Shown: positions 19,863-23,430 of the stretch, one piece after another
Layout of the letters: every line of letters starts with the position of its first letter
Numbering within the stretch: the first letter of the stretch is position 1
From: Acidobacteriota bacterium
GTDB taxonomy: Bacteria > Acidobacteriota > Terriglobia > Acidiferrales > UBA7541
DNA: 33,699 nt
Assembly: GCA_003154775.1 (NCBI GenBank)
Contig: PMES01000064.1
Location: 1-33,699, forward strand
Direction: 5' to 3'
Position numbers and translations under genes: made by a program
The notes under the pieces: model-generated
What the model was told of the DNA's origin: nothing
The model's input: the letters and a program-made list of their open reading frames with translations, nothing else
Database searches by the model: none

Positions 19863-20076
19863 AGAGCCCCTTAAAGGCGCTCCTCCGGTTCAGAGCAAGC
19901 GGAAAAATCGCCGCAAGTCCCCATTCCCCGCCCAACCGAAAGCCAATCCACTCCAGGTCTGACTCAGCCACATGAATCAGTGTCGCATTCGGCTAGTGTG
20001 ATGCTGTGGACCCACGTTAACGAACTGAAGACCTTCCGCGGATAAACCCGACCGATTGGCGGGAGCCTCCCGAATA

Positions 20077-20907
20077 ATGGAAATAACAAATACTCTAATT
20101 TATGGAGGCATCGCGCCGCCCGCGCGATCTCAAACTATGTACGAACACTTGTGGCGAGATGCGGCAATACTGCTCGGGTCCATGCACGTGATAGCGCCGA
20201 TGGCTGTGCGAAGCGGTTTCCGGTTTGCGGCGCACTGCAAGCCGGTGCAGGTGCCGGTGGAAGAACTGCCGCGTGAAGTATCGGCGTACATCCAGTCGCA
20301 GATACCGCAGATGCACAGCCTGGGTTTCGAGTTTCTGGGGTGCTACGACTGCGGCGTGCTGGCGAGCAACACGCGAAGCTTCATCGCGTATTTCTGCAAC
20401 CGGACGACGAACGATTTTGCCAACGTTTCGGTGGCCACCTCGCCGCAGAGAACGGCGGGCTACTTCGAATTTTCGACGCGGTTCGGAAACGGAATGGCGC
20501 TGGAAACGAACACGAACGGCATTTTACCGCTGACGCCGGATAATCCGGAGGTTCGCGTGTTCCGGTTCCCGGAGATCAAAGAGCCGCGCGAGCTATATCA
20601 GGTGCATAAGAGCCTGACCGAAAAGTACGCCAACGGCCAGTGGGCGCAAGGCGAGCCGAAGGGGCAAGAGATTCAACGGTTTGTGCGCGTGATGGAGAAG
20701 TATGGACCGCGGCACGTGAAGATGGGCTACATGTACTTGGCGCCTGATGGGGAAGCTTACTTCTTGACGTGGAAGGGCGCGATCCTGATGACGTGGCGGG
20801 GATTGTGGCCGATTGCGCTGATTCGAAGGGCGATGCATAAGTATGAGATGCGAGCGGAGTTGCAGTCGCTGCGCGTCCGTGGAGTGCCCGCGCTGCAGAA
20901 GGCGTAA
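20077..20907 (+). CDS. Conserved-looking protein of unknown function
   Basis: I do not recognise the family. The 276-residue product looks soluble and globular apart from a moderately hydrophobic stretch (about 20-35) and a C-terminal Trp-rich segment (about 235-250, WKGAILMTWRGLWPI). The central part contains CYDCG (about residues 91-95) and NRTTNDFANVSVAT. The start is uncertain. ATG 20077 lacks a ribosome binding site, a TTG at 20056 lies next to a small hairpin (GGGAG/CTCCC), and an ATG at 20137 would also be possible. Third-position G/C bias is like that of the neighbours, so the frame is real. It stands alone on the plus strand. Confidence 0.72.
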   Translation: MEITNTLIYGGIAPPARSQTMYEHLWRDAAILLGSMHVIAPMAVRSGFRFAAHCKPVQVPVEELPREVSAYIQSQIPQMHSLGFEFLGCYDCGVLASNTRSFIAYFCNRTTNDFANVSVATSPQRTAGYFEFSTRFGNGMALETNTNGILPLTPDNPEVRVFRFPEIKEPRELYQVHKSLTEKYANGQWAQGEPKGQEIQRFVRVMEKYGPRHVKMGYMYLAPDGEAYFLTWKGAILMTWRGLWPIALIRRAMHKYEMRAELQSLRVRGVPALQKA

Positions 20908-21094: not shown

Positions 21095-22324
21095 GTGCTG
21101 GAACTCGACGCGGGACTTGCATTCAGGGCGGAAGAAGACGCGGAGTTTTTTTCGCTGCTCCCGGCCAGGCCGGCCGTCTGCTTGATTGAACCGCGAGAAG
21201 AAAACGCCGAACCCTATTTAATACGGACAGCGGACCTGCGGCGGCGGCTGCAACGATTGCTGGGCCCGGCGGATCCCGCGAGCAAGCGATTGAACCTGCG
21301 CGAGTTTGCGCGGGCCGTGCATTACCGCGAGACGGGGTCGGCATTTGAGCAGGCGCTGACCTACTATCGCCACGCCAAACAGAATTTTCCCAAGCGCTAT
21401 CGGGACCTGATGCGGCTGCGGCCGGCAGCCATTCTAAAGGTAAATTTGCGCAATGCCTACCCGCGCTGCTACGTGACGCGGCGCATTGCCGTGGACGAAC
21501 AAGGGTTGCCAACGGCGGGAGCGTACTATGGGCCGTTTGCGTCGCGGCGCGCGGCGCAAGGCTTCGCGGAGAAGATGCTGGATTTTTTCAAGGTGCGGCG
21601 GTGCCAGATTAAGATCCGGCGAGACCCGGCCTTTCCGGGATGCCTGTATTCCGAGATGAAAATGTGCCTGGCGCCGTGTTTTGCGGGTTGCACCAAGGAA
21701 GAGTACGACGTGGAGGTGAACCGGTTGGTGTCGTTTCTGGAGACGAGCGGGGGCTCGCTGCGCGGAGGATTTGAAGCGGAACGCGAAAAGGCCAGCGAAG
21801 AACTGGATTTCGAGCGCGCGGCGGCGATTCACAAGAAGGTGGAAAAGCTGGATGATGTGCTGCGCGGGAGGCCGGAACTGGCGCGGAGGATTCAGGACCT
21901 GGATGCTGTAATTCTGCAACGCACGGCGCGGGAGCAAACGATTGGGGTCTATGCGGTACGAGGAGGGCGGCTGGCGGAACCCTATGAATTGCGATTTGGG
22001 GACACCAGCGAGCCGCGGTCGGCGGAAGAAACGGTCCGCGAGTATCTGGAAGGTGTGATGGGCGGTGGGGTGCCACTTCTTGCTGCAGCGTCTCCGGTTG
22101 CGGGTAATATCAGACAAAGCGCAGCGGAATTGGGCGAGCATCTTTGCCTGGTGGCGCGCTGGTACTACAGCAATCCACGGGAAGGCGAAATTTTCTATCG
22201 GGAGAAGGACTGGCCGTACCGGCGGATTTTGCGGGCTTGCGCCAGGTTGCTGGCGGCGAAAAAAAATGCCAAGGAAGAAACCGGGGTTCCAGAAGGAAAA
22301 GCGCAAAGCGAGGAGCAGAAATGA
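21095..22324 (+). CDS. UvrC-like protein, N-terminal half only, degraded GIY-YIG site
   Basis: The 409-residue product aligns by eye with the N-terminal half of UvrC. A GIY-YIG-like region (about 25-56) is followed by RCYVTRRI, then GAYYGPFAS, FKVRRCQIKIRRD and CLYSEMKMCLAPC, which is the UvrC Cys-rich segment. A UvrB-binding UVR helix pair, EKASEELDFERAAAIHKKVEKL, follows. The GIY motif has become AVC (C29 replaces the catalytic Tyr) and the YVG is YLI, so nuclease activity is doubtful. The C-terminal RNase H-like nuclease and HhH domains of UvrC are absent. The start is GTG 21095; a possible -10 box lies so close that a leaderless message is possible. The stop overlaps the next gene (ATGA). 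Confidence 0.85.
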   Translation: MLELDAGLAFRAEEDAEFFSLLPARPAVCLIEPREENAEPYLIRTADLRRRLQRLLGPADPASKRLNLREFARAVHYRETGSAFEQALTYYRHAKQNFPKRYRDLMRLRPAAILKVNLRNAYPRCYVTRRIAVDEQGLPTAGAYYGPFASRRAAQGFAEKMLDFFKVRRCQIKIRRDPAFPGCLYSEMKMCLAPCFAGCTKEEYDVEVNRLVSFLETSGGSLRGGFEAEREKASEELDFERAAAIHKKVEKLDDVLRGRPELARRIQDLDAVILQRTAREQTIGVYAVRGGRLAEPYELRFGDTSEPRSAEETVREYLEGVMGGGVPLLAAASPVAGNIRQSAAELGEHLCLVARWYYSNPREGEIFYREKDWPYRRILRACARLLAAKKNAKEETGVPEGKAQSEEQK

Positions 22325-23430
22325 GCCGGGGAGCGACACAAGAAGGAACCAAGAAGTATGCGGCAAAGCTTCAAGGGGCAGCGGCGGAGGGACATTTCCG
22401 CGAGGTACAGGGATTGACGATTTCCTCTCTTGGGGCGGGAACGTACCTGGGCCAGCCGAACGAAAACATGGACGCGGGATATGCGGCGGCGCTTGTGGCG
22501 GCGGTGGAGAATGGCATCAACGTCATCGATACGGCAATCAACTACCGGTTTCAGCGAAGCGAGCGGAGCGTTGGCACAGCGGTGAAGGTGCTGGCGAACA
22601 AGGGATTTGCGCGCGAGGAAATCGTTGTCTGCACGAAGGGAGGGTACCTGACGCCCGATGGAACCATGCCAGCGGACCCCAACCGCTATTTTTTCGAGGA
22701 GTACATCCAAAAAGGCATTTTCACCGCGAAGGAGATTGCGGCGGGCAGCCATTGCATGGCGCCGCGGTTCCTGGAAAACCAACTGGGGCGCAGCTTGAAA
22801 AATCTGGGCGTGGAATGCGTGGACGTCTATTATCTGCACAACCCGGAAACACAACTGAGTGAGATTCCGAAAGCAGATTTTTTGGGCCGGATACGCGAGG
22901 CGTTTTTATTTCTGGAATCGGAGGCGACGCGCGGGCGGATTCAGTATTACGGCATGGCGACATGGAATGGATTCCGGCAGAACGCGAGCGCCGGGGATGC
23001 GATGCAACTGGCGGAGATTGCGAATTTGGCGAAGGAGATTGCGGGAGAGCAACACAGGTTCCGGTTCGTGCAACTGCCGTATAACCTGGCGATGACAGAG
23101 GCGCTCACGCTGGGAAACCAGACCGTTGGGGGAAATACGAAGACGATGATGGAAGCAGCCGGCGAGCTGGGCATCACGCTGATTGCAAGCGCTGCGCTAC
23201 TGCAAGGGCAAGTGGCGCAAAACCTGCCGGCATTCGTGGCCGAGGCTCTGGGGCTGGAAAATGATGTGGAGCGGGCGCTGCAATTTGCGCGATCGTCGCC
23301 GGGAATTGCGACGGCACTTGTGGGAATGTCGCGCGTGGCGCATGTGGAAGCGAACACGCGACTCGTGGGGATGGCGCCGGCGGGAATCGAGGAGTTCAAT
23401 AAGTTGTTTTCGCGGGGAGAGGGCGTTTAA
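22321..23430 (+). CDS. Aldo/keto reductase family protein
   Basis: NAD(P)H-dependent carbonyl reductase fold of 369 residues. The catalytic tetrad can be read as D70 and Y75 (VIDTAINYRF), K106 (VVCTKGGYL) and H173 (VYYLHNPE). An insertion of about 50 residues after the Lys (PDGT...SHCMAPR) is longer than in classical members. The C-terminal part (SSPGIATALVGMSRVAHVEAN) resembles the usual cofactor-binding end. The ATG at 22321 overlaps the stop of the UvrC-like gene (ATGA) and has AGGAG 5 nt upstream, so translation is probably coupled. The physiological substrate is unknown, and a functional link with the UvrC-like protein is not obvious. Confidence 0.92.
   Translation: MSRGATQEGTKKYAAKLQGAAAEGHFREVQGLTISSLGAGTYLGQPNENMDAGYAAALVAAVENGINVIDTAINYRFQRSERSVGTAVKVLANKGFAREEIVVCTKGGYLTPDGTMPADPNRYFFEEYIQKGIFTAKEIAAGSHCMAPRFLENQLGRSLKNLGVECVDVYYLHNPETQLSEIPKADFLGRIREAFLFLESEATRGRIQYYGMATWNGFRQNASAGDAMQLAEIANLAKEIAGEQHRFRFVQLPYNLAMTEALTLGNQTVGGNTKTMMEAAGELGITLIASAALLQGQVAQNLPAFVAEALGLENDVERALQFARSSPGIATALVGMSRVAHVEANTRLVGMAPAGIEEFNKLFSRGEGV

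Follow-up and report, generated by a model that had tools for sequence, protein, structure and literature searches.

The usual picture of excision repair has a single UvrC, which cuts. The hallmarks of GIY-YIG nucleases are the GIY and YIG motifs, a central Arg and a catalytic Glu, as set out in PMC1564403. That paper also describes Cho, which has its own C-terminal domain where UVR would be, and a ‘Cho-like’ GIY-YIG subfamily with a C4 region and a UvrB-binding domain, for which it gives one member, from Gloeobacter violaceus. The UvrC–UvrB contact requires UVR, according to PMC7835731. Here we describe a Terriglobia-wide relative of the N-terminal half of UvrC that is, judged from its residues, catalytically dead.

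The window, the whole 33,699-nucleotide stretch of DNA that was analysed, lies on contig C64 of a 4.63-Mb genome. A gene at 21095..22324 on the plus strand encodes a 409-aa protein with Cho-like architecture, which we call half-UvrC. Its GTG start is consistent with the aligned N-termini of relatives, and the nearest named relative of the genome, Candidatus Acidiferrum typicum, has 96% protein identity over it. Its sequence corresponds to the N-terminal half of UvrC, with a predicted GIY-YIG fold, a four-Cys region, a UVR motif and a short C-terminal part. The best NCBIfam match is the DEDD-exonuclease/UvrC fusion model PRK07883 (E 2.8e-31, far under the cutoff). The UvrC model TIGR00194 gives 86.6 bits (E 1.6e-24; cutoff 285) and the Cho model PRK10545 gives 19.2 bits (cutoff 367). 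The likeness is not chance, given the NCBIfam E-value and the class-wide homologues. Pfam finds the UVR motif alone in the window protein: GIY-YIG, UvrC RNase H, HhH and RNase_T have no match there, while the genome's own UvrC has the first three. A phmmer search of half-UvrC against solved chains gave no UvrC match at E<=1.

An earlier note on this DNA had described a UvrC-like half protein with AVC for GIY and YLI for YVG, and this description holds: residues 27-29 and 41-43 stand where UvrC has GVY and YVG. The note was also right that the second nuclease and HhH domains are missing. Half-UvrC thus lacks the marks of UvrC membership under TIGR00194, which are an RNase H-type 5' nuclease, HhH and the curated score. 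The full uvrC that the note suggested looking for elsewhere in the genome is there, encoding an intact 622-aa UvrC with GVY/YVG, RNase H and HhH, and the genome also encodes a protein that both UvrB models accept as UvrB. Just upstream of half-UvrC, the frame at 20056-20907 has no Pfam or NCBIfam match at E<=1, and members of its cluster occur in only four loci. Neither half-UvrC nor the downstream reductase has a PADLOC match at E 0.01 that would make it a known anti-phage system.

The degenerate GIY-YIG domain spans residues 20-110 (21152..21424, plus strand), as placed by alignment and by comparison of an AlphaFold2 model with UvrC structures. Residues C29, Y41, I43, R44, R51, Y90 and Y102 of the window protein correspond to Y19, Y29, G31, K32, R39, E76 and N88 of UvrC. 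The ‘YIG’ Tyr is kept, and the GIY Tyr (C29), YIG Gly (I43), catalytic Glu (Y90) and C-terminal Asn (Y102) are lost. An earlier alignment put the Glu place one residue away in the window protein, at T89 rather than Y90; both are non-acidic. We aligned 103 family members, 28 of them from one genus, with 17 UvrC, 2 DEDD-UvrC and 2 Exo-Cho proteins, leaving out L001, L006, L019, L035, L049-L052 and L056 (duplicates, near-duplicate or truncated) and the fragment L072u. None of the 103 members has the catalytic Glu; in its place stand Leu, Tyr, Phe, His or others, never an acidic residue. The GIY Tyr position holds Phe in 57, Cys in 28, Leu in 8, Val in 4, Thr in 1 and Tyr in 5. No member retains the C-terminal Asn; 15 retain the YIG Gly, 66 the YIG Tyr and 94 the Arg. 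In contrast, 17/17 UvrC keep all six of these residues. The dead-looking site is thus family-wide, with the active-site Tyr lost in 98 of 103 members; five homologues keep this Tyr and none keeps the Glu, so the intact-site relatives that would have counted against the earlier note did not appear. Measured against the enzyme's hallmarks, the Arg is widely retained and the Glu and the GIY Tyr are not, and PF01541 (GIY-YIG) matched 0/48 members. Half-UvrC is very likely unable to cut, as far as residue conservation can tell.

Family f5 keeps the GIY Tyr in 2/3 rows and has no Glu. It is the earliest split within the clade in the midpoint-rooted tree, so loss of the Glu may have preceded that of the Tyr. 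Half length does not itself bring loss of the site, because phage half-UvrCs with matching domains, used as a control, keep Tyr, Gly and Glu in 8/8 aligned, of 12 loci fetched. These phage proteins (L233-L244; IMG/VR contigs, several of 56-292 kb) are about 245 aa long, with GIY-YIG, C4 and UVR, and their catalytic site looks intact in the 8 aligned. Separately, a member of the half-UvrC family occupies one end of a 41-kb IMG/VR contig (L221:44-1165), about 0.7 kb from a DNA methyltransferase-like frame, perhaps in host DNA beside a provirus.

The fold itself appears to be retained. An AlphaFold2 model built from 17 sequences has mean pLDDT 71 and pTM 0.67, with pLDDT mostly 80-90 in the GIY-YIG domain; a single-sequence model was unusable (pLDDT 36). 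Model residues ~10-104 match the UvrC GIY-YIG structures 1yd6 and 1ycz with Z 6.5 and 5.4 (TM on target 0.69 each), and Foldseek gave E of only 0.03-0.6 against UvrC GIY-YIG structures. This match is not fully independent, because the model's alignment included UvrC sequences. The GIY-like domain is strongly basic, with a calculated pI of 10.6.

The four-Cys region (residues 111-205; 21425..21709, plus strand) holds candidate [4Fe-4S] ligands at C170 (21602), C183 (21641), C191 (21665) and C195 (21677), all on the plus strand. Each Cys is present in 103/103 family members and 17/17 UvrC, so the Cys-rich region is kept, as first noted, and has the make-up of the UvrC/Cho C4 region. UvrC is reported, in work by Silva from 2020, to hold an O2-sensitive [4Fe4S] cofactor, and we take the four Cys of its C4 region to be the ligands. 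By analogy, half-UvrC likely carries such a cluster too.

The UVR motif (PF02151) covers residues 227-253 (21773..21853, plus strand) around an F239-E240-x-A242 core. It scores 20.2 bits in the protein search and 23.2 in the genome scan, against a cutoff of 21.5. F239, E240 and A242 are invariant in 48 members, which bears out the earlier claim that the UVR helices are kept as far as the core is concerned. The claim does not extend to the ‘LRD’ end, which has changed to LHK or LHR: 96% of the family have H246, where 17/17 UvrC have R. Pfam finds UVR in 31/48 members, and 17/48 have no match at E 0.01. UvrB binding is not assured, given the altered LRD end and these unmatched members, and the partner could have changed, because the motif differs from that of UvrC at LRD. 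A UVR scan of the own genome found UvrB and UvrC as the other full matches, plus one weak partial match on contig C148. The motif suggests that half-UvrC binds UvrB, at about even odds.

The C-terminal part (residues 263-395; 21881..22279, plus strand) resembles the post-UVR part of UvrC and of DEDD-exonuclease/UvrC fusions. In a profile comparison, residues 263-345 align with the UvrC stretch just past UVR, and PF08459, the catalytic RNase H half, has no match in this part. The residues invariant over 48 members are S82, P123, R124, G146, F148, R168, C170, C183, C191, P194, C195, Y204, F239, E240 and A242. This set marks the Cys region and the UVR core and includes no catalytic residue.

Homologues of half-UvrC were found in 245/299 Terriglobia genomes (E<=1e-20), and in 212/239 of those with at least 90% completeness and at most 5% contamination. 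A full UvrC reached 4.4e-21, so about three of the 245 matches, at E 1e-22 to 1e-24, may themselves be full UvrC. A member from another family, run against 199 genomes sampled from the phylum, matched 21/21 Terriglobia at E<=5.2e-51. The best match outside Terriglobia had E 1.1e-26, and the non-Terriglobia matches listed look like full UvrC, because their open frames are at least 522 aa. Families f3, f8, f9 and f10, a small sample, gave UvrC-sized matches only, and one f3 genome gave none, so half-UvrC is dispensable. One contig scan for relatives outside Acidobacteriota returned a single near-identical locus, and plasmid searches returned matches of UvrC, Cho+Exo or DEDD-UvrC type. The family is known here from Terriglobia only, and members may exist in other phyla. 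In the tree, 46 family rows form one clade (support 100/99) on a long stem, apart from UvrC, Cho and DEDD-UvrC. By a simple Nei–Gojobori count, with silent sites saturated in many pairs, dN/dS is 0.11 between the window gene and its closest relative and 0.07-0.24 over the 15 lowest-dS of 159 genus pairs. Half-UvrC is under purifying selection, which we regard as practically certain.

Downstream, an ATGA stop/start overlap at 22321..22324 (plus strand), already seen in the earlier note, joins half-UvrC to the gene for a 369-aa aldo/keto reductase (AKR; 22321..23430, plus strand; ATG at 22321; PF00248, E 6.8e-27). The superfamily has an Asp-Tyr-Lys-His catalytic tetrad. Here it is kept as D70, Y75, K106 and H173, so that both the domain and the tetrad of the superfamily are present. 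The tetrad is found in 31/31 alignable members; two more are gapped at D, Y and K, and the H is present in 33/33. Against solved chains, phmmer gave distant matches only (best E 6e-9).

We tallied linkage in the genomes with AKR, counting a gap of up to 500 nt as direct. The window's genus has 29 such genomes, with AKR directly downstream in 26, within 2.5 kb in one and within 5 kb in one; the other has no listed half-UvrC. Of 25 in the rest of family f1, 6 are direct and 16 have AKR 0.5-2.5 kb downstream; in 2 the genes are on different contigs, and 1 has no listed place. In family f7, among 20 genomes with both genes, AKR lies directly upstream in 19 and on a different contig in one. The single f2 genome with AKR has the genes on different contigs, as do all 19 in f6 and 4 of 5 in f11; the fifth has them on the same contig, on opposite strands and far apart. 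Linkage in f6 and f11 is thus 0/24, although 23 of these pairs are on different draft contigs, some at contig ends, and a few could be linked unseen. No AKR lay within two genes of half-UvrC among the f6 and f11 loci in the neighbour survey, whose gene caller missed half-UvrC in L091 and L191 and AKR in L183. The ATGA junction recurs in 20/26 genus loci having both genes (4 had only one). In f7 a half-UvrC start codon lies -22 to +12 nt from the AKR stop in 19/19, and 7 of these are ATGA. The junction survey took the in-frame start codon nearest the stop, and true starts may differ. In the AKR tree the f1 and f7 enzymes are placed apart, in keeping with a linkage that arose twice, or arose once and was then rearranged. 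AKR is no obligate partner, since it is absent or unlinked in many half-UvrC genomes. Other neighbours also recur: TldD/PmbA-type peptidase genes adjoin half-UvrC, upstream in several f11 loci (14 neighbour entries) and downstream in L111 (f7), and a 518-aa protein with no Pfam match at E 0.01 (L076:5847-7400, minus strand) is found near half-UvrC in several f11 loci.

Several other readings of these data have to be weighed. The half length by itself would fit a frameshifted or decaying uvrC, a reading that is contradicted and has next to no probability: a full uvrC lies elsewhere in the genome, relatives share the length class and the stop, the AKR start sits at the stop codon, and no frameshift hiding the rest of a UvrC was found. 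The gene is a maintained pseudo-nuclease, neither frameshifted nor decaying, because dN/dS is ~0.1 in the closest pair. It is very improbable that nuclease activity persists through a rearranged active site with other metal-binding residues. The fold is modelled as GIY-YIG, the Arg and Tyr29 are kept in the 94 and 66 members counted above, E85 is kept in 100/103, and R.Hpy188I is a precedent for a shifted site, a GIY-YIG enzyme that is active although Lys replaces its YIG Tyr, with the Glu retained (PMC2630997). However, in all 103 members the Glu column and the columns on either side of it are free of acidic residues, and E85 is no replacement, because 17/17 UvrC have the same Glu beside the catalytic one.

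The link to the reductase could be operon hitch-hiking, with AKR having no functional tie to half-UvrC. AKR is in only 124/298 class genomes (E<=1e-60), f6 and f11 showed no linkage, and f1 on its own is poor evidence, since the pair there belongs to a larger conserved gene block that includes acyl-CoA dehydrogenase. A stronger sign of coupling than f1 comes from f7, where the pair recurs in swapped order with abutting genes (19/20 adjacent) and the genes outside it vary among lineages. The coupling that the earlier note read from the ATGA overlap is real and recurs in a second family. We find hitch-hiking rather unlikely and a functional tie fairly likely. Half-UvrC could also have been neofunctionalised outside nucleotide excision repair, with its Fe-S region and UVR serving another UVR protein, the reductase or RNA, and its UvrC likeness reflecting ancestry only. 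The change at LRD, the separate clade on its long stem and the family-specific neighbours (acyl-CoA dehydrogenase, AKR, TldD/PmbA peptidases; no repair gene among those examined) all point this way. The invariant four Cys and F239, E240 and A242 point the other way, as does the finding that UvrB and UvrC are the genome's other full UVR matches, and we consider neofunctionalisation doubtful.

The reading we prefer, with a probability of roughly 0.5, is a UvrB-docked modulator that does not cut. The GIY-YIG fold would serve as a basic module for nucleic-acid binding or for structure. Selection holds fixed the UVR core and the four-Cys region, whose probable [4Fe-4S] cluster would act as a structural or redox element. 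UVR would dock half-UvrC on UvrB or on UvrB-bound DNA, where it may modulate nucleotide excision repair as an adaptor or brake. The earlier note had proposed that the protein might bind UvrB without cutting, as a competitor or adaptor. In two families half-UvrC would be made together with AKR, and the simplest reason would be that the two proteins respond to a common stress. Going by what AKRs and excision repair do chemically in general, this stress may be reactive aldehydes, whose adducts would be cleared by excision repair. A more elaborate version is distinctly unlikely: a two-protein Terriglobia module in which a redox- or aldehyde-sensitive Fe-S pseudo-nuclease gates UvrB and a co-translated NAD(P)H reductase removes damaging aldehydes or sets the state of the sensor, which would make half-UvrC the first non-cutting UvrC paralogue acting as a regulator. 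A dead-site UvrC relative with a fixed cluster and UVR core would separate their roles from that of the nuclease, and would offer a natural cutting-dead tool for studying the purpose of the Fe-S cluster in UvrC. That the pairing with AKR recurs in swapped order is a testable hint at the stress involved.

Among the matches listed in the open-licence PMC literature, we found no publication on the Terriglobia half-UvrC family. It shares with UvrC (TIGR00194) the N-terminal half, that is the fold, four Cys and UVR, but has no RNase H or HhH domain and has lost the catalytic residues. Like Cho (PRK10545), it is a stand-alone GIY-YIG plus C4 protein; unlike Cho as described in PMC1564403, it has UVR and not Cho's C-terminal domain. 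Like the DEDD-exonuclease/UvrC fusions (Cho-like+Exo, Actinobacteria), it extends past UVR into the C-terminal part, and its PRK07883 match reaches 501/563 in the window, 529/563 in L111 and 555/563 in L047. Unlike the fusions, it lacks the N-terminal DEDD exonuclease that defines Cho-like+Exo, whereas L149 has RNase_T. In the fusions L149 and L164 the GIY Tyr, both YIG residues Tyr and Gly, the Glu and the Asn are all present, and they lie on the opposite side of the tree from its clade. In the phylum, 0/247 genomes had a DEDD-UvrC over the PRK07883 cutoff. The Tsukamurella fusion (L164:801-2630) has two of the four Cys replaced by Ala and Pro and keeps the nuclease residues, a mirror image of the window protein. 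Half-UvrC has the domain make-up of the ‘Cho-like’ subfamily as PMC1564403 describes it: GIY-YIG, four Cys (C4) and UVR (Pfam match in 31/48), and no exonuclease, RNase H (EndoV) or HhH. Unlike that one-member subfamily, whose Gloeobacter protein is likened here by its description in that source, half-UvrC forms a large class-wide family from which the catalytic Glu is gone.
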